In this document: positions 3,001 to 62,777 of the stretch, one piece after another
Position numbering within the stretch: the first letter of the stretch is position 1
Layout: each line of letters starts with the position of its first letter
Assembly: GCF_000003815.2 (NCBI RefSeq)
Contig: NC_049982.1
Coordinates: forward strand, 18,653,534-18,717,533
Direction of reading: 5' to 3'
Length of the DNA stretch: 64,000 nt
Source: Branchiostoma floridae
Lineage: Eukaryota; Chordata; Leptocardii; Amphioxiformes; Branchiostomatidae
The notes under the pieces: model-generated
Told to the model about the DNA's origin: nothing
What the model saw: only the letters and a program-made list of their open reading frames with translations
Database searches by the model: none
Translations under genes and position numbers: made by a program

Positions 3001-6000
3001 ATAACAGCTGTCAACAATGTGGAAATTGTTTTAAAAATGAGGGGTGAGGTGTCACGAGGTGATATCGTGATCACTCTGTGATCACCCCTGGTGTGGGGAG
3101 TGTCACCCGGGTAATTGGGAGCAGATGTACAGGGGTTTGAGAAGGGACACGTATGAGGGTAGGGGATTCCAGCTAGAGACGCCGACACGGTAGGACGTGC
3201 CCAGATTGTCCTGAATAAAGGTTATCATCTCCGCAACATCATGCCTCTGTCCTGATCCTTGACTTGACTCACTACCATGCCACCGTTAGGACGTGCCCAG
3301 ATTGTCCTGAATAAAGGTTATCATCTCCGCAACATCATGCCTCTGTCCTGATCCTTGACTTGACTCACTACCATGCCACCGTGACACCTACGCTTACACA
3401 AATCAATATGGTGCACCACTAAGCCACAAATGATTAACATTTCGGATATAATATTTCTAGTATATTCGATCAGACATTTTTGCCCCCCAGCACCTATGGT
3501 TTCTACCGGACCTCCCAGTAGAGTAGGAAAGTTGTAGAAATCGGGCAAGAATACAAGGTATGTCTTGGAGAGCGGCCTCCGAGGCTAAGTTCCGCCACCA
3601 ATCAATTATAATGCATCAAATTTTGGCCCAGTCAACTAGATGAAGACACTACTGGGCACCGACCTCTTCCCCTTTAGCGACAGGTCTGATGGCCCGTGCG
3701 ACCAACACGTCCCCGTAGAAGTTCCTATTGATGACCGGGTCGCAGGAGTGGTTAAACATCCCCAGCATGGTGCAGTGGAGGGCGGACGCTACCTCCAGGT
3801 ACCGGCACCGGTCTGGGTCGCCTCGGTAGAACTCAAACTCAGAAACCTGCAGCAGGCATGGGACGAGATTTGTAGTAAGCTTCTTATTACAAATTCTTGC
3901 CCCGGAGTTAATACCGACGGCTATCTTAGGGATGTATTAAAAAGGGTATCCACATATTAAAAGCCATGCACAGACAGGCAGACAGACATACGCACACAGG
4001 CAGACAGACAGACGCACAATCACGCACAATCACTCACGCACTTGTAAACGCACGAAGGCACAATAAACACACACAGACACACACACACAAATACTGAAAA
4101 AAAAACAGACACACACACAAATCCAGTGCATTGTTTCGTCAAAGATTGTATGACTTTCCTCCGGGAAAATGTCTTCCCTCATGTGCGTTACAGGGTATCA
4201 TCTGCAGATGTCTCAACAGATGAGAAGCTACGAGCAACTGGTCTTCTTCAGCCACTTCCTGCGCGGGAACCAGGAAGACCCCGCCATTCTGTAATATTCT
4301 CAACAGAAAAATCGCCATGACCGTCCTACGAAATAAGTCACTCGGTTTACGTTCTAAAGAATGATTCTCCAAGTTGTAAACACTGTTGTAGTCATTTGTA
4401 TACACTCCCTCGTCATTTAGACCTGGAAAATCTTTGTAGTCTGTATTTCCAGAGTTTCTGTCTTGGGCGTTTTTTTCTGGTTCATTTACTTTTCTCGAAA
4501 TGTTGTCTTCCAGCGTCCGCTCGAATTCTTGAAGAAAGTGGAATCCTGTCCTGTTGACAAGTCGTAAGGCCAGGTGGCCCATCCCCCCTACACCAGAGGA
4601 GTGGATGAGTCCCAGGTACTGACACTCCACACCGTGGTACTGTGTCCATGCCAGGTCCGCACACTCGTGGCTACAGTATCTGGCGGTGCTGCACTGCTGA
4701 CAGGGGAGCGGGGCCGACACCCTTCTGTTTTTGATCATAAGAAGACAATACAAGATTAAACCACACATCACAATGAGTCTATCAGCAATCATAGTTAAAC
4801 GCATGACCTTTTCTGGACGACGCAAAGTCAAAGCAAACGACGGTAACAAAAGTCTGCTATTATGGTTTGTCTGTAGTAAACACAGCATTTCTTGAATTTT
4901 GCGTTTCAAACGTAAGTCACAAGAAATAGACTCTATAATCACGATAATAACAGACTCTGTCCCAACATATGAGATATGAGAACAAGCTAATATAATATGA
5001 CAAGAATAATACCAATGTGCCATAAAGGTTGAAGTTTATATGAACTTACATTAAGAGATTTAGAATGAAAAATCGTATATTTCTTGACAGGCCGCGTTTA
5101 GGGTTAAAATACTGTCAGAAAAAAAATGGCCGGTCAGAGAAAGTAACGATTTCCCCCTTTGACGTGTGCGTGTAGATTTCGGTGCACTCTCCGAGCAGAG
5201 GTTGATGGGTTAAATCATGACCTTTTCTTTATATGGCGTCGTTTTCTGACGACCCATAAGGAAAGGGTAACGATTTTCCCCATCAGTCTCTGCTTGTAAT
5301 TTGCGGTGCTTGACCTGCAGCAGTAGTCACAGTGCGTATCACCCTGCTCCGGTAACACGACAGATCCGTACGGCTTCTCCACGATCAACACGTCACCCAC
5401 ACGGATGTCCTGGGCGGCCACTGCGTGACGACCCCTCTGTTCGCTCTGCCTGTACGGTAAGACAATAGCTTTGTAGCGATTGTAACGATTAAGGTCTCTT
5501 TAATGTAAGAACGATCTTGATCGAGAAGTATGGTCATGGGTTTAACCTAGTACTAGTATATATCTTACCACAGCTTCTGTATCTGAAAGACTCTTTGATG
5601 TTTGTGCCTCAAGAGTAAAATAATGATGAAATCAAACAATGAGGTATATCTCATATCTGTTGTCTATACGTATGTAAATATTCTCCTCACCTTATTTCTA
5701 CAGCAGTAGAGAGGGAGGGAAACGTGCTGTTTGTTCCATAACTCACGGAAGGGATGTTAGTGGTTGAGGATGGATCAGCAGACTCCACAGACGATGGTGT
5801 TCTCTGCAATGCCGCTATTTGTTTATCAACCGTCGCTTTCCACGATTTCCGCTTCTTGCTGTTTAGCGAAGATTTCGTCACGTGTTCCTTAGCCGTTAGA
5901 AAACTTTGCAGGGCTTCTTCGTCTCTTCCAAGATTCCAAAGACATCGTCCTTTCCGTTCGTGCAGCTTGTATGTCAGCTCCTTTGGGTAGCCGTGGTGCA

Positions 6001-6484
6001 ATGCCAGATCAATGTCCTTCATGCTGAGGTCGTATTTCCCCAGACTGAACAGCACGGCGGACCTGTTGGCTAACGCAAGTGAAAATTCATTCCCATCATT
6101 CGTCGTGACGTCATTTTTGTCACACTGCGCGCGCCCGTGACTACTGCCGTTCATGTTACCATGGGCAACCGGGTGATTGACATTTGGATCAAACGGTGCC
6201 TTGAGAACACTTTCACTATACATCTGTAGAGCAGAGTCATAGTCCTTTTGACCAAACATTTTATTCCCAAATTCTCGAAGTTTTGTGGCCTCCATTGCTG
6301 ACTTTCCCTTGAACATGGGTTTGACCTTGATGTAGCTGTGAACGCTGGGGATGCTGAGGGCATATGAGACTCGTTGCTGATTGGTCGAAAGCTGCAGAAA
6401 GTCGGAAGACATTTCCTGTGTAGACCGCTGGAGATCTCCACATATCCGGTCGAAGAGAGCTTGAAAGTACGCCATTTTCTTCAT
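1..6484 (-). CDS. SMYD4: SMYD4-like MYND/SET protein-lysine methyltransferase, 3' end beyond window
   Basis: Seven exons can be joined in frame: 5691-6484, 5315-5449, 4178-4724, 3664-3846, 743-831, 330-413 and 57 to the left edge (about 629 codons visible). Exon 1 encodes the N-terminal TPR-like helices (around residues 68-100 and 133-205). Exon 2 begins the split SET domain (GRHAVAAQDIRVGD) and supplies the first MYND pair C305/C308. Exon 3 completes the MYND finger as C318-x2-C321-x5-C327-x3-C331-x8-H340-x3-C344. Exon 4 carries the SET signature NHSCDP (524-529). Exon 5 has ITLNYS and the post-SET FFKC, continued by CxxC pairs in exons 6 and 7. The order TPR-SET-MYND-SET is that of SMYD4, a presumed S-adenosylmethionine-dependent methyltransferase. 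Start chosen at the first Met of the open exon; a second Met lies three codons later. Odd points: the donor after exon 3 reads GAG|GGAAGA instead of GAG|GTAAGA, and the intron between exons 4 and 5 contains an LTR element. Confidence 0.9.
488..507. repeat. TA dinucleotide microsatellite
   Basis: Ten TA units in the intron between exons 5 and 6 of the SMYD4-like gene. Simple repeat, likely length-variable between haplotypes. Confidence 0.9.
1007..1247 (+). repeat. 5' LTR (241 bp)
   Basis: Starts TGTCACG, ends CGTGACA. A candidate polyadenylation signal AATAAA lies within CTGAATAAAGG near 1169-1174. Nearly identical to the 3' LTR apart from a few substitutions, which suggests a fairly recent insertion. 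Confidence 0.88.
3050..3386 (+). repeat. 3' LTR (337 bp) with internal 96-bp tandem duplication
   Basis: Same termini as the 5' LTR but 96 bp longer. The extra length is a perfect-period tandem copy of the 3' portion of the LTR: copy one begins TAGGACGTGCCC at 3191, copy two at 3287. The duplication includes the AATAAA polyadenylation signal, so this LTR has two. 241 + 96 equals 337 exactly. Confidence 0.88.
3965..4115. repeat. CAGA/CACA simple-sequence tract
   Basis: Degenerate CAGACAGG and CACACA repeats in the intron between exons 3 and 4 of the SMYD4-like gene, directly downstream (in transcription sense) of the unusual GG donor at 4177-4176. Confidence 0.8.
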
Positions 6485-8862
6485 ATAGGAGATAAAAGGT
6501 AAGTGTTAAGAAATACCAGTCTGAGAAGAATCAAATCACTTTATCTACCACCTTCCCGTTTACTTTGCAACTAACTCGGCAGCCTTTTTCTGTCTATAAT
6601 GTAATGATATATTAAGATTTAAATGTGTTTGGAGTTACCCAAGAAAGCGTATTGCTTAACCATCGTTGTTGTCGTCTTGAACGATTCTAAACGGAAATTG
6701 ATGTTACATTGTCTAGTACCCGTAGTGCCCTTAGATCACATCTGTATGAGGGCGTGGTTAGCAAACGCAGTGGACCTTCCGGTTCCACCTGACAGCGTGC
6801 GTAAACCCAGAAGCCAGCTCACATGACAGCCACTCACTGACCCGTCAAACAACAGTCAATAAATACGAGCTCTTCGGTCAACTAACCAACACCCATTAAA
6901 AACTAGGGCAAGCACGTTCGGTTAAAAAGAAGGCACGCCATTTCATTCAAATTTGTTGCTATGTCATACTATAGCGTCTACCGTGGAGTTAATATATGGA
7001 TTTGGATTACCATTTAAAGGGACGATCCATAACATGAAGAAACACGGCCCCACAGCCTAACACCAGACGTGAACAAATTTGGACTGTCCCCTCCACTGGA
7101 CGTGATATCTGAAATATGATCCTTCTGGTGTCTTTTGTACATTTGGTATCTACTGTATGCGGCGAAGTCTGGCGGTTGTGAAAAACGGCCTTCAAAAGTT
7201 TATCGAGCACTGTCAATGACAAAGGACCCACATTTTTCTGTTATTTTCATCATTTACAACCTCATGTCTCAAGACAACGTGACAGCCGTCACGTGACAGC
7301 AAGGTCAGAGATTATGACGAAATTCCACAGATAACCTGGGAATGTTGAACTGTAGGTTCAACTCTGCGATACTGTGTCTAACAATACATATATACGGATG
7401 CCGTGCAACAGCAGAATGTCACCTACCTTGTCTCCTTGTACCCTGGAATGACTAGAATACACGGTTTTATCTGCCGACAGTTTCTGATCTGACGCAGTTT
7501 CTTTTACACCATGCGTGTTCAATCAAAGCTGGGCGGCAACTGTCGTCTGTCACGAGGGTGTGTGGAGGGTTTTCTGCAATATTATTACAGGAACTGGGGA
7601 TTCCTATTCGGGGTCAAATCATAGTTGAGACAGTGCAGAATAATTCAAATATAACAAATTGTCGAATCGACAGTTAAATTAGGAAGAGGCGTCATGTTTT
7701 AGCCATACATGATGACATTTGGTGTGATTCTTTCTCCTGAAATACTCCCTCTTGCCCCCACGCGTTATTCTCACCCTACCATTTTTGGCCTTCGGGACCA
7801 AAGACTGAAAACAAACCTCCGTGCCTGGCATGCCTGCACGCAAGTGGACAAAACAACAACTGGCGACTGTTGGTTCTGACGTGACAGAAGCCACCCCTGG
7901 CTTTAGGCATGGAGAAGGCAATTTCTTAGTTCACATCTTTATTAGTGCACCGGCCACAAAGGAGGCGTTCGGCCGTGACATTGATCTTAAATCTATAGAT
8001 AGTTCAAAGCTTACAATCTAGAAATAAACTAGAGATAATATTATAAATAATCATCATAATTTGCTAATACATTTGTTTCTAACCAAAAGAAACATTGGTA
8101 TCGATGCTGATATAGGTCCTCTGGCATTTTAGATCATTTTAGGCCTTAGGGTGGAGTGTTATGCCCTGTAAGTTACTGGTTAGTAAATTGTAACATGATG
8201 ATACATGTGCATGACGATTAACAATCACCCCTTCTGGCTTATCTTAATCCTGATCATAAAAAAAGAATTACCAATTTCATATCTTAGTTGCTCCTGAAAG
8301 CACAATATAAGTTATAATGAGCGAAACGTGCGCCAATAGCTATCAATATTATTGGAATGGTTATTGATTAATTCAATTGCTATCATCAGAAAAAGGGACC
8401 GCTGAAATGAAACTGACCAGAATCACGCGAAGCCATATTTACGTATACATTAGTTACTATATAAACGTGAGAATTGTGCGGATGGTGTTTGCCTTGCATT
8501 TAATTTCGCGAAACATGATCCTCCCTCTGGTGGAAGGATTGCGCAACTACTATAGGGATCGTACCATTCATCACACGGGTATGTCTTATGATGGTATGAT
8601 GAAGAATCTTTACAAAATTAAAAGCCTCTGCCTGTACGAATATATAGAATAAGATGAAACTGCTGTTTTCGATAGATCACTACGCCAAGTTAGTGGTCCT
8701 TTATCTACTTTGCAAGATTGGATTCTAATCTTTTAGTAAAAATATTTAGTCCCCCTTATAAGTAGTCGTGTCGTCCAATATGGTGGTCCATGTGTTCTAT
8801 GTTTGTGAATGTCCGTAGAGCAGCAGCTTTTGTAACCCTTTCACCTGTTTATCCGTGATATA
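6485..8862. other. Intergenic DNA between divergent SMYD4-like and DNAJC24 genes
   Basis: About 2.4 kb that must hold the promoters of both divergent genes. Short open frames occur but none has recognisable domains or paired splice sites. No TATA box, tRNA or mobile element is evident to me. Confidence 0.6.
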
Positions 8863-11789
8863 ATGGGTACAGGTTCTACAGAAACGGTCCCAGACCTATA
8901 CTCTCTTCTACAAGTACAAAGGTGTGCTTCACATGACGAGCTGAAGCAGAGTTACCAACGGCTGGTTCTGAAGGTACGTGCCCCCCTCCCACCCCATATT
9001 GCAGCCAGTACTACTAGTAGGTACCCAATCTGAGTGAATTGTACTAGGTTCACCCTGTAGCCACCTCTTCCCAGTAATAGACATAATTTTCCAGTGCTAG
9101 ATCGTGCTTCTTACTCTAGTACTGTTATGAAATTTTGTTCCACTGTGCAGTTGTGTTCTGCTGGTACAGTGGATTTGGACATTTAAGAATTGTAACATTA
9201 GAATTTAGAAAATATTTCTATTTGTTACTGTGATACTTTGTAGACAGGGTACTAAGATCATACATTGTTGCTTGCAGTATCATCCAGACAAGATAGCCCG
9301 GCACCAGTCTCCTGAGGATCAGGCAGCAGCACAGGACATGTTTGTGGCCGTGGACAAAGCCTGGAAGACTTTGGGTGATCCAACTCTGAGGAAGGAGTAT
9401 GATGCAAAACTTAATGGTAGAGTTATTAGACATCATACCCCCTTTTCATATACTGTAATTCACTTTGTCTTCTCGGTACCAAACTTTCACGGTCTGAGAA
9501 AATTTAACTTCTCGTCGCGGCAAGTGCACATAAAAAAATTCTGTGAATTATTAGTTATCAGTAATGATAAGGTCTTGTTACAGTCGTCACTGCGAAAACC
9601 GTGAATATAACATTGAAAAAATCAGGAATTACAGTAACAGTATATTTTTGTGGTAACAGTAACAGTACTAGTAATGGTAAGATGAAATGAAATTGCTCAA
9701 TGTTGAAATACTAGTATGGCCTATGAATATCAATAACAGTCCCAGGGCTAGCCTTTAAACTACCCATTGGCTAGCTATTGTTGGGAAGACCTAGCAAAGG
9801 AAAAGAGAAGGCAATGGGAGATTCTTGATTCAACAATACCAATTCCCTGTGTAGACCCTGCATGTATTTTACCTTGTAGTGTATATAACATGTTTGTATA
9901 GTGAATCTTGCAGTTCAGCCTTTTGGCTGGAGTTTCATTCAATAAACCAGTCAGTAAACCAGTCTATAGTTGACTGGTAATGGGTTGGAAGCAATCATTT
10001 ATTTCAGAGGCATAATAACAGATGTAATTACATATCTACAGAGAAAACTATCAGCCAAGAGTTTCCAGTTGATGAAGAGATCACGCTAGCAGATATGGAT
10101 TATGATGAAGGTAGGATACCTTTGTCAGCTAGATTTAGTTTATTTTGTTGTAATGTATACAATGTGTCCAAGTAATTGCACCTCGTTCCTACTCTGAGCT
10201 TATGTTTGATAGCCAAAATACTTCACCATTGCAGGCCACCATAACTTTCAATTCTCTTCTGTCCATTGCCCAAGTATTGCATGGCAATGGACTTGATTGC
10301 ATGCTACAATGAATGCAAGTTGGTGAATTCCATCCTTTGTTTTAATACTTGCTTCCTTTGTAGGCTTTCACCAAGTTGGAAATGACCATACAATGTTAAG
10401 CCCCGGTCACAAGAATCGTACGATTGACTGCGATGGAGGTTTTATGCGCGGCATAAGCGCAGTACGTCGTAAGTCGGGGAAGAATCGGAAGCAATGGTTT
10501 AAATATATGAAGCCGTGGTCACAAGGATCGTAGTGCGTCGTACGATGAGGTCATTAGAGCGTATCTGCGTCAATCGCAGGTAAATCATAGTAAATTGGGG
10601 AGCGTCCTATGACGAAAATAGAGCTAAAATGGATTTTGAACATGTTCAAAATTTCGCTATCGTCGTAAGATTTTATTTGCCCCAAAAGCAGACTTCATTA
10701 CGGCAATTTTTGTCTACTGATGAGGTTATAGATTTATGAATTGTTAGCATGTTGTGATGGTTTCAGTTTTCCCTGATATTGTCGATATTGACGAAAAGGG
10801 AAAATATATCAGTCGCAACTGCCACAATCGCAACCAGAGAACAGCGCGCCACGCACAGGTGATGCAGACAATTGTTTGATCGCTGCATGCACGCAAGTTT
10901 ATAATTAGATCAAATCTCAGCTCTCGTCGGTCTTGGGTCAGTTTACCATAATCGTAATAACCATGGGGACAACTCAAACATAAAGGCAGGCTCTATGAGT
11001 CGGAAATATATATGATATAATGCTTATGATATGATTTTTGTATGATGGCATCTTTTTGTTGATAGCATATCATGATACAATCTTCGAAAGAGCCTGACAC
11101 GCAGAGCCGGCAAGCAGGCCAAGATAACCATACCAGTACTCACGCTTAATTTGAACTTTTCCTTGTAATAATCTTGTTGTCATGGTCTTTTTTAATTTAT
11201 TTTTAGTTAAAGATATTATAGGAAGGTATTCAACAGCTATGTCCACATTTTGTTGGTTAAAGAAGCACAAAAACGGCCAGACGGCTATACAGAAGAGACA
11301 CAAGTGAAAAATCGTACGACGCTGGAAAAATTTTGAACATCATCCGATGCTCTGCGATGGCTGATTTTGCTTACGATTTAGCTGCGATCCACTGTGATCA
11401 TCGTGCAATAGGCGTAATATGCCATCGCAAGGACGTCGTACGATTCTTGTGACCGGGGCTTAACTCCTAAAGGAAAGAGGGCTGGCATTTCAAAAGTTGA
11501 CCTATACCTTGCCCCCTTGCCATTGTGCTGATAAGCTATGGTTCCCAAGATCTGTCTATGGAACACATCCTAATGTATGACCTGTTATCTGTCTGTGTCT
11601 ATTCCAGGTGAAGGTGTGTACTCGTACCCTTGTCGCTGTGGTGATGACTACTCAGTGTGTGAGGATGAAGTAGAAGATGGGAGAGATGTTGTGATCTGTT
11701 GTAGTACCTGTAGTCTCAATGTGAGAGTACAGGGTGTGAGTAGTGCAGATGTGCAGGATGGTACACATCAACAGGAGGAAAGTAGATGA
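8863..11789 (+). CDS. DNAJC24: DPH4/DNAJC24, J-domain protein of diphthamide synthesis
   Basis: Four exons, 8863-8973, 9278-9416, 10042-10110 and 11608-11789, give 501 nt in frame (166 aa). Exons 1-2 encode a J domain beginning LYSLLQVQ with the diagnostic HPD motif at residues 39-41. Exon 3 carries the acidic linker FPVDEEITLADMDYDE that is typical of this family. Exon 4 encodes the CSL-type zinc finger: YPCRCG (C115, C117) and CCSTCSL (C138, C141). In eukaryotes DPH4 stimulates Hsp70-type ATPase activity and binds iron through the CSL domain, supporting the Dph1/Dph2 radical step of diphthamide formation on elongation factor 2. Length is close to vertebrate DNAJC24 (about 149 aa). The exon 3 acceptor was set at CTACAG (10036-10041) because an upstream CAG at 10016 breaks the frame. 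The last intron carries a DNA transposon. Confidence 0.93.
10396..11463. mobile_element. Non-autonomous DNA transposon with TTAA target site, in DNAJC24 intron 3
   Basis: Flanked on both sides by TTAA (10396-10399 and 11460-11463). Terminal inverted repeats are identical for 24 bp, beginning GCCCCGGTCACAAGAATCG, and keep partial similarity inward (TGCGATGG on both arms). A degenerate extra copy of the terminal motif lies internally near 10510 (GTGGTCACAAGGATCGTA), and the octamer-like GTCGTACGAT recurs near both ends. No transposase-like open frame is seen. TTAA duplication is characteristic of piggyBac and Kolobok elements; which of these applies is not decidable here. Confidence 0.85.
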
Positions 11790-12582
11790 CAACAAGTCAC
11801 AAAGAAAATGTAACTTATATATATATTAGGGTTACACAGGAAGAAAAACACTGCATATAATATATAAGATTCTTTGCTGTTGTTTTCTTTAAGAAAAGCT
11901 CAAAAAAAGAAGATGTTGCAAAGCGCAGATAATTTGAACTTGTATTTTATTACTTTTGAAATGGCTTGATACATTCATGCAACTGGTACAATGCCACAAA
12001 CAAAGAAGAAAGGTTACAGACAAATGTGCCCTTAGCAGTCAGACATTGATACACTAGAAGTCACTGGTACAATACAAGTTGGCACAATGTCCTAGTTTTC
12101 AATTTGATAAATATATGTACATGCAATCTTAGCTTAATTTAAGAACTCACAATTTTTATTTTGTATTTCACAATTGTCTAACTTCCAAATATATCTTAGC
12201 CTCTATCTACTACTACTGCTTTCTTGTCATTACTGTTTAAAATATACTCTTGAAATCTTCAAACCAGCAGCATTTACTCATTTCGGCTTAAAATACAAAA
12301 AATCATCTGTGGAGTACTTAATATGTATTTATGCACTACATCAAAATTCATGGTGCCTGATAGATTATAATGATACATAGACTATGTTTACAAAATGCAT
12401 ATTTCGTGTTCCACAAGTAAAACGAAAAGGTTTAACCTACTTAAAAGAAGATTTGGAATAAACAAACTTGTCTCATATGCTAAACACGTCTACAGCATTA
12501 GGATGGCAAGCAGGTACTTACTAAAGATGTCCTATGCTCACACCTGTCTGGTAGGTACTTGCTAAAGATATGGTCCGTATGC
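11790..12582. other. Convergent 3' region between DNAJC24 and the peroxidase gene
   Basis: AT-rich 3' untranslated and intergenic DNA. TTTATT (AATAAA on the minus strand) occurs near 11948 and 12156 and could end the peroxidase transcript. A roughly 40-bp imperfect tandem duplication (12511-12590) overlaps the peroxidase stop codon. Confidence 0.55.
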
Positions 12583-15500
12583 TCACACCTGCCACTTGGT
12601 CAGATCTATCTGGTGCAGAGCCGAGCACGCCACTATGTCGTTCCCAGCGCGGGGGAGTCGGAAGACGTCAGGCTGCATGTGTGTGGTGCCGTCCGTGTTG
12701 TCGCACAGAATACGGGCCAGCGTTGTGTTCTTTATCTCAGCAAGTTGATCTGATTGAAAATACAGAGAACGAAATTATGTAGCTTCGTGTAAATACATGT
12801 ATAGTTATTGGAGACATAAAAAAAAATAAGCAGTATATGACTACCGCTATGGGACAGCCCTGTAAATATCTTGCTACTAGTACATGTAGATATCTTTAGG
12901 CTTCTTGTCATAGCTTTACCAGTAGGGAACAATGAATTAGGTCTAGGATAGACATTTATCTCGTAGACTAAGTAAGCAAATTATACCAGAATATGAATTA
13001 CCTGTGGTGAACTGTCCGCTGTTCTCAAACCAGAAGCGGTCCCCCACCCTCAGTTCCTGGAACTGCAGGCCGATGAGACAGGCGAAGGTGGGGCCGACTA
13101 CACCGCCCGGCACGGACTTCTCGGCAAGACCTCCGGCAAACAGGTCGATGTCGTCTACGTCACTGTAGAGTAAAGGACGTACAGCATGACGTTAGAAGAA
13201 TAAAGGCGAATGGTGTTTTCAAAGTAATGGAAATGTGTTTAACTTAGTTGAGTGTCAAAAACACAGATGTGTGTATGCACGGAAACGATATGTAGCCACT
13301 ACTCACGTGTACACACTAGACAGCCGATGTCTGGTCACCCAGTCGGGGATTTCTGCTTCCAGGTCGTCGAAGCCATGTGCCCTGGACAGGCCGCATCTCT
13401 CCCGCCAGGCGTTGTACCCGGGCAGTCCGTGGTCTCGCCCCCGCTGGATGTTCAGGGCGGCCAGGTCCAGCCCCACCGACCCGGGAGGATCCGCGAACAG
13501 GTGCTTGGTCAGATCGCTCACCATGAAACGGTCGAACAGCCCAGAAGCTTGGCTCACAAGACCACGTATGATGGAGTCGGGGCCGCCTTGGTCATTGTCG
13601 AAGATGTGGGACGGATTGAAGAAGCTCATGGCCAGCTGGATCGGGCATTTGGCGCCTGGGGCATAGTCTGGAGTCGCTCTGGTGAACTTCTCATCAACAA
13701 GACTATGGCCGAAACGGTAGGCTGCTGTGGAGAACGCGTTAGAGATGGTTGGGTTCGCGTTCTCGTCATACCCATGGTAGAAGCCATTCTCGGTTAGTGA
13801 CAGGTTAAACTTGGCCATGGCATCCGGACCGAGAACGTTAGGCAGATCCTCTCCGTACACGATCTTCTGCATCAGCGCGCCAATGATTTTCCGGGTTTCC
13901 AAGAAGACGCGGTCCTCGTTCCAGAGTGGGTTGAGGGTGGAAAGCTGCCTGGCTATCCGGTTGTGCTCGCGGAGGAAGACGGTGTGCATGGACGTCAGAC
14001 CTGGCTGTTCGTTCACGCGGACGTCACCTGCCTGAGAACACGTCTCCGTCCCGTCCGACTCGTGCTCAGGACACCCCATCTCAAACTCCTCCGCCATGGC
14101 ACCCGGCAGCAGCTCCTTCTTCTCTGAGTCTGCAGGGTTGGGTCGGGACTTCAGCAGGCCGCGAGCTGCAGAGAGAGGAACAGGTATTTGGTTTGTTAAC
14201 TCTTCATGCCGATACACTACAAATCACAGAACATGCCAAAAGTAAGCTATCAACAGTGGTGAAAACAATCTTATTGTCCTTCTGTTCAAGTAAAGAAGCC
14301 AATTTTGGGATAGAAAGGCATTAGAATAGTACACCAATATCTTTGCTTATCCTGTTCAATTACTTTTTTTCACCAAGAGGGAATTAGGTGACAACTGCAA
14401 CTATGCACAGTGGGGGTATAAACAAGCATGAGTTTGCTAAGATATCGAGACGTGACTTACGAGACTTTGAGATCAGCTCGACTTGACAGATGTATCCCCG
14501 GCGCCTGCTGCAGGGCACGTCGTTCCATTTGGAGCCCGACGTCCCTGCCAGGAAGTTCACGCAGTCCTCCCGCCCCGAAATCTCAGGTTCTCCCGGCAGC
14601 CAGTTCGTGAAGGCACCTGTAGATCACAAATATTAAAACTTAGCAAAGTCATGGTACATGTATATCCTTTTTGAAGAACATGGCATAGAGAGCTATGTCT
14701 CTATTGGTTCCACAATAATTTAGATATCTACTGAGTCTCACATCATGTCTATCGCTTTACTGTCTTTACTGTGTGCGGTTTTACGCGCTGTTGGGCGTTA
14801 TTTTCGCATACCAACTTACAGCGCTAGAGATAGAGATATACATTTCAAACTGGTGGACCGGACCAAATGATCTCGTGATAGTCCGTACCATCTTGAAGTA
14901 TAGTCCCGTCTTCCCATCGCCATTCTCCCTCGACCTGTCTGTCGCTCAGGCCGAACCAGAAGGGGACTTCTGTAGAGACTTGGTTCTTCAGGTGCACCAG
15001 GAACGTGTTCGTGTCGTTGTCTTTGGGCGTGGCGAGGATTCCGCCATCTTCCGCACAGCTTGCCGCGGCGGAGTCGAAGTCTTTTGCCGTTTGAGTGGCC
15101 TTGAAACAGTTGCGTCTATATCTGGTGTATCCTAGAGGACACAGCCCTTGTTCTGATTGAAGGAAAAGAGAAGTGTATTAAGAGTACGTCTTAGATCTAT
15201 TTCAACCGGTGTAATTTCTCTACCACGTCTTTAAAAGGGGACATTAAGATATGATGATGATCGAATTAGGTCACAGGTATCTATAAAATGTTGTAGGGAA
15301 GAAAACATTACATTGCAAAATCCGTTAACGCCGTGCTTTGTGAGGTTAATTTTTCACATACAGTGGTGACTAAGATTCATACCTTCGTACACCTGTACCT
15401 CACAAAGTGTGAGGGGCTGTCTGGCCGGCAGGAGAACTCCCACATAGCGGCCCTGGCGACCGCCACAGTCCACGGTGATAGTTTCCTGTCCCCTGGTCAC

Positions 15501-17904
15501 TACGTGGTTACCACCACACGACGGGTTGGACGCCACGTTTGGAGAGTCGCCCACGTGAAGCTGGAAGGAGTTGAGTCGTTCCGTGCAGCAGTCCTGCCGG
15601 TTGAAGATGACGACCTCGTCGATGTAGTGTGAGCTTCCCAGGTCGACATACCACCAGTTGTTGTCAGTGTTCTCTGTGTGGGTACAGGAACTGGAGCTGT
15701 ACACGGCGTTAGTGTTGCCGTCCACCGCGCGTCCAGGGACGCCACCGAACGCTACACTAGACTGTTGCGTGGCACGTCCTAAGGCAAGGTTAGGACCACG
15801 CATTTCTGGAAAAAAATAACCAAAACATTACATAACAGCAAAATTTTTATTTGCTTACCGTTCATCTAACTTGTAATCCACTGACGTTCAAACATTGCTT
15901 CTAGATTGACCCTTGTCTCAAATTCTCAATGATTGGCTCTAGTCATATGAGGACCTTTGATGTTTTTGATTCTGTGATCATGAATCACAACTGTTGATAT
16001 AGGATCCATGATAAGATGACTGCCTCACCCTCGTGCTTATCCATGTCTCTAAGAACCTCCATCTCCTCCTCCGATGAGCCGTAGACGTTGGAGGCGTCTA
16101 TGAAGGCGGTGATCTGGTTGATCTGCTGCCGCGGACCCATGCGGCACCCTTCGTTCGGACTGGATCGCGAGCGGGAAAACGTTATGCACGGCTCACTGGC
16201 GAAGTCCTCATCATCGGTGGGAACGGGGATGTTGAAGCAGCGGTCGTCCTGCGAGCCGCATTCGCAGACCAGACCTAGAAAAAAAGAGGAGTGTTACAAC
16301 TATCATTTCAAAGTTAGACGGATGTAATTTCACTCGAATGTAAGTTCATCTGTGATGGTAATCAATATTATAATTTCAGTTATATTTCCCGAGTAGCCTC
16401 GTAATGTATAGCATATAGAATCCACGACTATTGCATTTTGAAACGGAATTCCTCAGGCAAAGCATCAATACGATTTTGGCGCATTTTATACGACTCATTT
16501 TACCACGCTGGTAATGGCTTGTCTTGGAAACTCAGGATGATAGGGGTACCTCACCTTCTTCCTGGAAGTTTGGAGTCAGCGTGATGTCGTGGTCCAGGAA
16601 CTGGCCGAACTGCATGACCATGTTGGAGTTGACGGAGCTGGACTTCCTGAAGTCTTCGTGCAGGGTGGAGCTGACCAGCCTCGCGCTGGGGAGGGACGCG
16701 CCACTCCGGGCAGTCATCCGGGGCACCGTGAACCCTGGGAACACATGGTTACCACATCAGGTGCTAGGTAATGGTATTACGGCATATATCACGTACTGCA
16801 AGGCGTAACTTTAATTCTGCAAGATGTACACTTACATTTTACCATGTGTACCTACACTTTAACACGGGTGTGTTTATGTACGTATACGTTACAAAACATT
16901 TAACCGAGGACAGGTGAAAGATGGGAACCGACAATAATCATAAAGTTAATATTGATGGCAATTGCATTAATGAGGGATTGCAGAAGTGCTCATACATTGG
17001 CCCGCTATTAAAAGCTTCAAATAGTACAAACATATGGCACATACCATCGCTGTACTCTGACGGGAGCAGTCTCTTCTGGGGTTGTTCAGCACTTCCCCAA
17101 AGGGGGTGAGCTCTGTTGTTGCAACGGCCGTCTGCCGACCGGAACTCTGGGATAGCTGGTGGGTCGCAGGTGACTGGTTTCATCGATGTCACGTCACACA
17201 AACTCGTCAAGTTTGTAGATTCGATCCTCGTCAGCGCCTCAAAACTGACATTGTATTCACTGAAACACAGCGAACAACTTGTTTTAGATGCTGCAAACGT
17301 TACAGAATGTGTACAAATATTTCAGAAATAATCACATCAGTTTATCAAAAATGTTAACAACGAGAAATCTTGCTCACCTGCCCATGAAATGCTCTGCCAC
17401 ATTCTCCAAGACCCAGGCGCATTGGCTGAGCTCCACAGACATGGGCGTGGACCTGTGAATAGTGCCGAGTTTCAGCTGCACCGAAGTCGGTACGGGCATG
17501 TTGTCTCCTTCAATGGTAAAAAAAAATACTTGTTATTCAAAAACAAAATTGAGGTCAATTGAAAATTTTGCGGATATCTCGATAAAAAGAATGTGATATT
17601 TACATGCAGAAAATACGTATATTGCATATCATGTTTATGTCTTTTTATTATATGTAAATTCCTGTTCGCCTAAGCACGCCCACCCTCCCCTGACGCGTAT
17701 ACTCTGCGCTGGTTAGAATAAGAGTTTTGTTCGCTTACCACCAGAGAGGGCTTTAGTCCTTTGCTCCAACCTTTCCTTGGCCAAGTCGATCGCTTGCCGT
17801 AGTTCCTCGTCTGTTGGAATCCGCGCGACAGCCGTCCATGATATCATGGCAACTATAACCAGCAGAATCTGGGCCAAACTGGATGGAGACAACATGTTTG
17901 ACAT
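12583..17904 (-). CDS. Secreted haem peroxidase with nested fucolectin and C-type lectin domains
   Basis: Eleven exons in transcription order: 17739-17904, 17378-17507, 17045-17259, 16555-16734, 16029-16274, 15383-15805, 14889-15152, 14461-14616, 13307-14165, 13002-13162, 12583-12749. They sum to 2967 nt, 988 aa. Exon 1 encodes a hydrophobic signal peptide (start at the first Met, residues 1-25 or so). The animal-peroxidase domain runs from about 95 to 312 and resumes at 594 to the end. Distal haem side: GQFLDHD with Q215, D218, H219 and calcium ligand D220; second calcium loop TAFIDAS; VYGS; catalytic R643 and haem-ester E646 in DVRVNE; proximal H747 in RFGHS; RGRDHGLPGY near the end. Residues 313-453 (exon 6) form an F5/8-like fucolectin/tachylectin-4 module with NLALGRATQQSS, DCC and RxDx4R (RQDCCTER). 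Residues 454-593 (exons 7-8) form a long-form C-type lectin domain with six Cys, FWFGLSDR, EPE and WND. Both inserts fall in the loop between VLRDMDKHE and RGLLKS. Role as a lectin-targeted oxidant generator in mucosal or haemal defence is inference. Confidence 0.92.
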
Positions 17905-18612: not shown

Positions 18613-18731
18613 CTGGCTTTCATGATGTCCAACGAATAGCGAATCTGAAGGTAGAAGATACCGTCTTGGTGGTCTATCGTCCGATACACCTGTCTTTCTG
18701 AAGTTTTCCTGCACCGTGCCCTCATTTTATA
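18613..18731 (-). promoter_or_regulatory. Probable core promoter and untranslated first exon of the peroxidase gene
   Basis: On the minus strand a TATAAAA box (18731-18725) is followed about 110 bp later by a strong splice donor CCAG|GTAAGT (exon end 18613). The transcript start would lie near 18700. The exon contains one short upstream ATG (ATGAAAGCCAG) not in frame with the peroxidase start. It is about 0.7 kb upstream of the coding start and in the same orientation, so assignment to the peroxidase is an inference. Confidence 0.5.
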
Positions 18732-61600: not shown

Positions 61601-62777
61601 AGAACTATCCTATTCATTCCATTGGGCTCAACTCGATATTGCTTTTATTGTAATTGTACGTATGGTGCGGTATAAAGATGATTTCATGATTAGACCAACT
61701 TAAAAGCCGAGTCATAACTTAAAAGTCATTCAAGGAACATGTGTAACTAATATTTTTATTCACATTTTGTTAGCTACATCTTGAGCACTTGCTACCTTCT
61801 TATACTTCATGTTTATTTTCTACAATATTTTTCTAGGAAAAGAGATGAGCGAAGACGATAAGAAATCAACCAAACCTGCGACGGGCGAGAAGCCGAAAAG
61901 GAACCGGACTTCTTTCTCGACCAGACAGCTGCAAGAGTTAGAGAGAGCCTTCCGTCAGACGCACTACCCTGATATATTCATGCGAGAGGAGCTGGCCATG
62001 AGGGTGAACCTGCCGGAGTCACGTGTGCAGGTTAGGATAAACATTGTCATTACGGTTTACCCCAATAATAGAGGAGGTGAAGTTTTATGCACATCATGTT
62101 TAAATTCAGCAAGTGAATATCGTCATTTTTTGCACGTTTTTGCAATCGCACATGTCCACATGTTCTAAATGAAGTCGACTATTGGTATTACATGAAAAAC
62201 TAAAGGTAAATATCACTACTTGTATACAATGGGAGAAACAAAACAGCTAAAGCTAAGCTACCACTAAATCTATTGTTACACTAAATCTATTGCCCTCTCC
62301 TCTCATTAAAACTAGTGTATGCGAATTTTCTGACAGCTTTTACTGTTACAACAAATAGACAGGTACATGTATAGCTTCAATTTGCTCCTGTCGGAAACTA
62401 CTTCCAGGTACCAGCAAAGTTTTGAACACTATTTCCCACAGGTCTGGTTCCAGAACCGCCGAGCAAAATGGCGGAAGCGGGAGAAGCACCTGCACGACAT
62501 GGGAGACGTGGAATTTCCCGACGGTACCCGGGAACGTCTCCACTACGGACCCTTTTCACGGTTCGACCCCCTCGGGCATTTACCACCCTACCCCCTGCTA
62601 GGTCTGTACCCACACCTCTTCCCGGCCCAGGGCAACCCTCTGCTCCTCAACATACCCAAAGCAGTGGGCTACGGAGCACCATTCATGGCCTTCCCAAAAA
62701 AACCTGCCGAGAACGTTACTTGCCAGGCGCAGGAAACATCACCGGCTGAGTCAGAAAAGGAAGAAAAAGAGGACTGA
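58682..62777 (+). CDS. PRD-class (paired-like, Q50) homeobox transcription factor
   Basis: Exons 58682-58958, 61837-62030 and 62442-62777 give 807 nt, 268 aa. Exon 1 encodes an acidic N terminus and [10 protein letters not shown] (60-69), an octapeptide/eh1-like motif expected to recruit Groucho/TLE repressors. The homeodomain spans residues 112-171: [39 protein letters not shown], then [15 protein letters not shown]. Gln at homeodomain position 50 (Q161) and Asn51 (N162) are present. No paired domain and no OAR tail is seen. The C terminus is Pro/Leu-rich ([14 protein letters not shown]) and ends in an acidic/Lys stretch. The intron between homeodomain codons 46 and 47 (RVQ|VWF) is the standard PRD-class position. 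The homeodomain looks closest to Arx and Otp types, while the N-terminal motif recalls Rax/Isx; orthology is unresolved and an amphioxus-specific Aprd-type gene is possible. Confidence 0.9.
60349..60555. mobile_element. Mutator-like MITE in homeobox intron 1, perfect 9-bp target duplication
   Basis: Perfect terminal inverted repeats starting TAGCCTCCTTCACCGGCGTC and continuing to about 27 bp. Exact 9-bp direct flanks GGCGAGTAC (60340-60348 and 60556-60564). The interior includes a run of G residues near 60395-60408. The exact flanks suggest a young insertion. Confidence 0.88.
61147..61388. mobile_element. Inverted-repeat MITE in homeobox intron 1
   Basis: Left arm TGGACTCTCACTGCACTTGG and right arm CCAAGTGCAGTGAGAGTCCA are exact reverse complements over 20 bp, and similarity extends to about 48 bp with several mismatches (through the GTTCGT segment). 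Target duplication not clear. No coding capacity. Confidence 0.7.

Follow-up and report, generated by a model that had tools for sequence, protein, structure and literature searches.

Structure of the peroxidase-lectin gene

The stretch of Branchiostoma floridae DNA considered here, 64,000 nucleotides long (contig NC_049982.1, positions 18,653,534 to 18,717,533; hereafter the window, whose own numbering is used below), carries on its minus strand a gene for an animal haem peroxidase in which a fucolectin domain and a C-type lectin domain (CTLD) are encoded inside the catalytic domain. Eleven exons (E1 to E11), with GT-AG borders at all ten introns, join into a single frame of 988 codons followed by a stop. 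An earlier sequence-only reading had proposed this gene, and its exon positions, its frame and its splice borders all proved to be as given. In particular, the junctions around and within the insert (16029/15805, 15383/15152, 14889/14616 and 14461/14165) were recovered exactly upon re-splicing, and the insert itself, placed at residues 313-593, has the proposed boundaries and a length of 281 residues.

Exons E4 to E8 are all of phase 1-1, and E9 is of phase 1-2. Direct joining of E5 to E9, leaving out E6-E8, keeps the frame and yields a protein of 707 amino acids. Since each of the three exons is of phase 1-1, their removal keeps the frame and the peroxidase match then runs without a break, the insert is a self-contained cassette and the enzyme that surrounds it is complete. 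Specifically, the Pfam profile An_peroxidase matches the 988-residue form in two stretches (2.5e-185; 617.5 bits, cut-off 25), which flank the matches to F5_F8_type_C_2 and Lectin_C, and matches the skipped form in one stretch covering positions 1-530 of 530 (633.3 bits). The nesting of the lectins within the peroxidase is thus borne out by both the profiles and the frame.

The full-length match above the cut-off assigns the protein to the animal haem peroxidases (PF03098), in the branch of myeloperoxidase (MPO), lactoperoxidase (LPO) and thyroid peroxidase (TPO). Accordingly, the closest relatives of the skipped form in the PDB are MPO (best chain 3.7e-110) and LPO, and the alignment with MPO extends into the propeptide. 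The distal His, the catalytic Arg and Glu, the proximal His and the calcium loop are all present in this alignment: the motifs GQFLDHD, DVRVNE and RFGHS, already reported as intact, align with MPO, as does the calcium loop TAFIDAS, and we take these residues to have the catalytic and calcium-binding roles of their counterparts. In MPO, a Met forms a sulfonium link to the haem. The lancelet protein carries Gln at this column (rvNEQpg versus rssEMpe), so that the third haem link of MPO is not expected and the protein, judged by the sulfonium Met, is not a myeloperoxidase in the strict sense.

In the alignment, the insertion point falls between Asn358 and Gln359 of human MPO, three residues past Asn355 (full-length numbering, counted on chain 6bmt_A). 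The surface-loop position suggested for the insert therefore agrees with the alignment, which would place it within a loop and outside the haem-pocket motifs. According to passages of PMC7857493, the MPO loop that holds Asn355 is flexible and close to the active site, the glycans lie away from that site, and both MPO activity and its inhibition by ceruloplasmin change when the Asn355 and Asn391 glycans are truncated. A loop on which MPO carries a glycan could plausibly accommodate a domain.

The two lectin domains

On the 988-residue model, the first domain matches F5_F8_type_C_2 at residues 338-435 (1.7e-22). Ranked by sequence, its PDB relatives are the striped bass lectin FBP32 (3cqo, 1.9e-52), then fucolectin-related bacterial modules and the eel fucolectin 1k12. 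For the fucolectin exon by itself, an AlphaFold model built from the single sequence reached a predicted local distance difference test score of 64.9, a modest value that serves as support for the fold only; with this model, Foldseek gave 3cqo (4.5e-07) and 1k12 (8.2e-07) as top matches. Fold and profile matches to fucolectins were thus both obtained, as for a member of the F-type lectins. In addition, the motif HX26RXDX4R, which we take to be the fucose-binding motif of F-type lectins, is read exactly in E6, and its residues align with domain 1 of FBP32.

The second domain matches Lectin_C at residues 476-586 (2.5e-20), over profile positions 2-106 of 107, and its closest PDB relatives are domains of the mannose-receptor type. 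Among the best 150 of 1252 candidates in the genome, its best-scoring relatives, itself aside, are three domains on C10, with 53-54% identity. In C-type lectins, EPN or QPD together with WND forms the sugar and calcium site. The window domain has WND, and has EPE where relatives carry EPN; both EPN and WND occur in all six lancelet relatives compared (three on C10 and three from locus L029). Elsewhere in the genome (G000:C2:10522329-10523201), a pentraxin and a C-type lectin match adjoin, each in an open frame of 404 amino acids, probably one and the same frame, as a further combination of lectin with lectin.

Paralogues with lectins at the same intron

Eukaryotic relatives were sought in this one genome (a 513-Mb assembly of 431 contigs). 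The An_peroxidase profile gave 92 matches, from the best 81 of 128 candidates, which we grouped into 23 loci, several of them fragmentary; co-location with lectins was judged by eye from 150 fucolectin matches (best 150 of 480 candidates), 129 pentraxin matches and 150 CTLD matches (best 150 of 1252). A fucolectin is found in at least three of the 23 peroxidase loci (the window on C4, and those on C6 and C17), a pentraxin in one (C6) and a CTLD in at least one (C4). When 15 loci around peroxidase matches besides the window's own were searched, the fucolectin profile matched those on C6 (L009) and C17 (L016) only, the pentraxin query matched L009 only, and the CTLD profile had no match in any.

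The C6 gene joins from E3 to its end without an internal stop. Between the equivalents of E5 and E9 it carries a two-exon pentraxin, whose outer boundaries are both in phase 1, and a fucolectin encoded by one exon of phase 1-1; Pfam recognises Pentaxin (2.1e-37, positions 4-192 of 194), F5_F8_type_C_2 (5.6e-21) and An_peroxidase (6.6e-189). In the same locus (L009 7500-8580), partial tandem copies of the last peroxidase exon precede the one that reads to the stop. The C17 gene, with splice sites read by eye, has a two-exon fucolectin at the same intron position. Three of the nine peroxidases in the tree comparison therefore use this intron for lectins, namely for a fucolectin with a CTLD, a pentraxin with a fucolectin, and a fucolectin. 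In five other paralogues (L010 to L014), no fucolectin, CTLD or pentraxin match was obtained, the reading frames between their exons, which may hold a domain of another kind, having been viewed by eye, and in L022 (C2:7.08 Mb) a single open reading frame runs across the insertion point. The lectin-bearing paralogues are the main new result of this analysis, and they show that the design is not a one-off, which the sequence-only reading could not have revealed.

Selection and history of the insertion

Pairwise ratios of nonsynonymous to synonymous divergence (dN/dS, Nei-Gojobori) were obtained for the fucolectins of C4, C6 and C17 and for a non-peroxidase copy on C7. They range from 0.24 to 0.35 over six fucolectin pairs, next to 0.22 to 0.35 over four pairs of peroxidase exons; the fucolectins are under constraint. 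All three peroxidase fucolectins retain the presumed fucose-binding residues, with a spacer two residues longer in C17.

Synonymous divergence between C4 and C6 is similar in the fucolectin (0.85), E9 (0.72) and E5 (0.62), which would fit one old insertion. This reading is weakened by the C4-C7 fucolectin divergence, which is 0.83. When 27 fucolectins were placed in a tree, the window domain stood beside the C7 copy (71% identical; support 69), and the C6 domain pairs with a copy at C4:1.33 Mb at 95, C17 joining them at 94. By the approximately unbiased test, a single origin that includes the C4:1.33 Mb copy was not rejected (p 0.41), and the three peroxidase fucolectins alone as a clade were rejected (p 0.001). 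In the tree of nine peroxidases, C16a groups with C6 and C17 (support 68), with C4 outside at 72. No lectin was found in the C16a peroxidase gene, so that its position would require that a lectin was lost there or gained twice. Whether the fucolectin entered once or twice, the simplest reading makes separate additions of the pentraxin and the CTLD, the slot having been used more than once.

Both non-peroxidase copies can be located. At C7:8.308 Mb (L027 4540-5049), the fucolectin exon is accompanied by no detected peroxidase exon, and neighbouring reading frames resemble, by eye, galactose-binding (SUEL-type) and WSC-like domains. The copy at C4:1.33 Mb (L030 4747-5370) likewise lies without detected peroxidase exons, and is nested among the C6 and C17 peroxidase fucolectins, a placement that suggests movement of the module between unrelated genes. 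As for a mechanism, a search between intron 5 and intron 8 gave no flanking direct repeat of 14 nucleotides or more.

Lancelets are described in passages of PMC4284660 as having the fastest exon shuffling reported in metazoans, biased to 1-1 exons of promiscuous domains, and a high turnover of domain pairs. Such shuffling explains the origin of genes of this kind, and since it has already been published, we do not call the present finding categorically new.

Relation to known proteins

With MPO, LPO, eosinophil peroxidase and TPO, the lancelet protein shares GQFLDHD, the Arg and Glu, the proximal His, the calcium loop and the alignment over the propeptide; it differs from this group in the two lectin domains held within the catalytic domain. 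The fucolectin agrees with eel 1k12 and bass FBP32 in sequence, in fold match and in the presumed fucose-binding residues, but is a single domain inside an enzyme. The CTLD resembles those of the mannose receptor family and DC-SIGN in its Lectin_C and PDB matches and in WND, and differs in EPE for EPN. Among invertebrate haem peroxidases, peroxinectins and peroxidasin serve in adhesion or in the matrix, and their extra modules, so far as is known, sit outside the peroxidase domain. Peroxinectin couples the peroxidase to an integrin-binding motif, as stated in a review of the peroxidase superfamily (PMC4420034) in whose main text the word lectin is missing. Similarly, words beginning with peroxidase or lectin are missing from the main text of PMC2575513 and PMC4284660, and in passages of a paper on the Oikopleura house, peroxidase and lectin domains are on different proteins. 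A full-text search of open-licence papers led to no prior description that we recognised of a peroxidase with an internal lectin.

First exon, repeats and neighbouring features

The ATG at 17904, with which the sequence-only reading had opened the protein, is probably not the start codon: a small first exon with an upstream TATAAA fits better, and translation probably starts at 18623. There, ATGAAAGCCAG is followed by GTAAGT, 108 nucleotides below a TATAAA at 18731. Joined in frame to the acceptor at 17878, this exon (E0) makes the protein begin with MKASLAQILLVIVAMISWTAVARIP, by eye a better secretion signal than the MSNMLSPSSLAQ of the 17904 start. The resulting model has 12 exons and 983 amino acids, and its skipped form, by subtraction, 702. 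Of 32 minus-strand TATAAA elements in the window, one is followed within 60-160 nucleotides by an ATG..AG and GTAAG. In the C6 gene, the sole paralogue examined for E0, three candidate exons were found, none with a TATAAA upstream. A scan for bacterial-type promoters upstream gave seven matches against 3.3 expected in shuffles; it is inapplicable to an animal gene and was not used. The exons are collected in Table 1.

Table 1. Coding exons of the peroxidase-lectin gene, in window positions
Feature	Position	Strand	Basis and remarks
E0, proposed first coding exon	18613..18623	-	ATGAAAGCCAG then GTAAGT; TATAAA at 18731
E1, signal peptide and start of propeptide	17739..17878	-	begins at ATG 17904 in the eleven-exon version
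E2, N-terminal propeptide region	17378..17507	-	spliced frame
E3, start of peroxidase homology	17045..17259	-	spliced frame, Pfam
E4, distal His motif GQFLDHD	16555..16734	-	frame, Pfam, MPO alignment
E5, calcium loop TAFIDAS; phase-1 end is the insertion point	16029..16274	-	frame, MPO alignment
E6, fucolectin (F-type lectin) domain, phase 1-1	15383..15805	-	Pfam, PDB sequence matches, Foldseek
E7, C-type lectin domain part one, phase 1-1	14889..15152	-	frame, Pfam, PDB matches
E8, C-type lectin domain part two (EPE, WND), phase 1-1	14461..14616	-	frame, Pfam, relatives compared
E9, DVRVNE catalytic Arg/Glu, proximal His RFGHS, NIQRGRDHG	13307..14165	-	frame, Pfam, MPO alignment
E10, C-terminal peroxidase	13002..13162	-	frame, Pfam
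E11, C-terminal peroxidase and stop	12583..12749	-	frame; AATAAA downstream at 12160

The cassette is bracketed by a 15-nucleotide inverted repeat, 93% complementary, at 14248-14262 (intron 8) and 15985-15999 (intron 5). It could favour skipping of the cassette or formation of a circular RNA, yet it is short enough to be due to chance, and too short to be claimed as a mechanism of insertion. Elsewhere in the window, open reading frames with TPR and MYND matches lie on the minus strand at 4142-6505, in what may be a SMYD4-like gene. On the plus strand, a DnaJ domain extends across two open reading frames at 8836-9601, one of them under the family cut-off, and an open reading frame at 62334-62774 has a segment resembling the end of a homeodomain, with no Pfam match at 1e-3.

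Weighing the explanations

We consider it reasonably probable that the gene encodes a single secreted, glycan-targeted peroxidase, formed when a fucolectin and a C-type lectin were shuffled into a phase-1 intron of an enzyme of the MPO/LPO/TPO branch. Several observations weigh against this. The skipped form scores slightly above the full form as a peroxidase (633.3 versus 617.5 bits), and a minus-strand AATAAA at 15851, within intron 5 and upstream of the lectin exons, could permit a transcript ending ahead of them. The EPE of the CTLD may mean that sugar binding is altered or lost, and this domain occurs in one peroxidase only among the matches listed, so that no selection test backs it as part of the gene. 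Finally, at the NMS sequon of MPO Asn355 the lancelet protein reads RDM; accordingly, the glycan biology of this site is not shared with MPO.

The higher score and the AATAAA, together with the in-frame E5-E9 join and its uninterrupted Pfam match, would suit a gene in which E6-E8 are mostly skipped in vivo, or form a separate gene nested on the same strand, the working enzyme being a plain 707-residue peroxidase. This is improbable, as E6 opens in phase 1 with no signal peptide of its own (by eye), a motif search found neither AATAAA nor ATTAAA in introns 6, 7 and 8, all three exons are of phase 1-1, and lectin exons occupy this position in paralogues too, with fucolectin dN/dS of about 0.3. 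That dN/dS value and the presumed fucose-binding residues kept in all three peroxidases also speak against the modules being near-neutral passengers tolerated in a loop, an explanation that draws on the published domain-pair turnover and 1-1 exon shuffling of lancelets (passages of PMC4284660) and that appears equally hard to credit. Less remote, though still unlikely, is a lectin head that tethers the enzyme to fucosylated mucus or matrix of the lancelet itself, in the endostyle or gut, for cross-linking or iodination instead of attack on microbes. Gln in place of the MPO Met would make chloride oxidation less likely, and the amphioxus endostyle is competent for iodination, thyroid-peroxidase orthologues being expressed in amphioxus. 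Both points on amphioxus are stated in passages of PMC13078365, but no result here links the gene to the endostyle, and the variety of lectins among paralogues suits recognition of varied targets at least equally well. Because the lectin set varies in this way, recognition of foreign glycans would be slightly preferred to anchoring on self mucus.

A putative family of glycan-targeted peroxidases

For the glycan-targeted peroxidase that we favour, exon shuffling would have put both lectins into one phase-1 intron, at a surface loop near the position of MPO Asn355. The catalytic domain would still fold round the haem, and the lectins would project to one side as a head kept clear of the pocket. 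The most likely ligands of this head would be fucosylated, and possibly other, glycans, on microbes or on mucus of the lancelet itself, and short-lived oxidants would then be made at the glycan-bearing surface; if E6-E8 were skipped in frame, the gene could also supply a peroxidase that is not targeted. The analysis shows how the gene is built, with its phases, domains and motifs, and shows the paralogues and a low dN/dS in the fucolectins; from these we infer that the gene is spliced in this way in vivo, that its product folds around the insert, binds sugars, acts as an enzyme and is targeted, and that the cassette may be skipped.

Oxidants made by this class of peroxidases diffuse, and keeping them on target is an open issue. 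In a broader proposal, to which we give an even chance, the intron would be a recurrent docking slot of lancelet MPO-like peroxidases, where fucolectin, C-type lectin and pentraxin heads were inserted, combined and perhaps exchanged, so as to build a modest set of oxidant enzymes aimed at glycans, with an untargeted form of each perhaps available through in-frame skipping. With different lectins at the same catalytic loop, such a family would permit a direct test of whether glycans can target an oxidant enzyme, and would be a natural template for placing binding domains within an enzyme that stays intact. The arrangement is also a clear instance in which 1-1 exon shuffling has reached inside a catalytic domain instead of adding to its ends.

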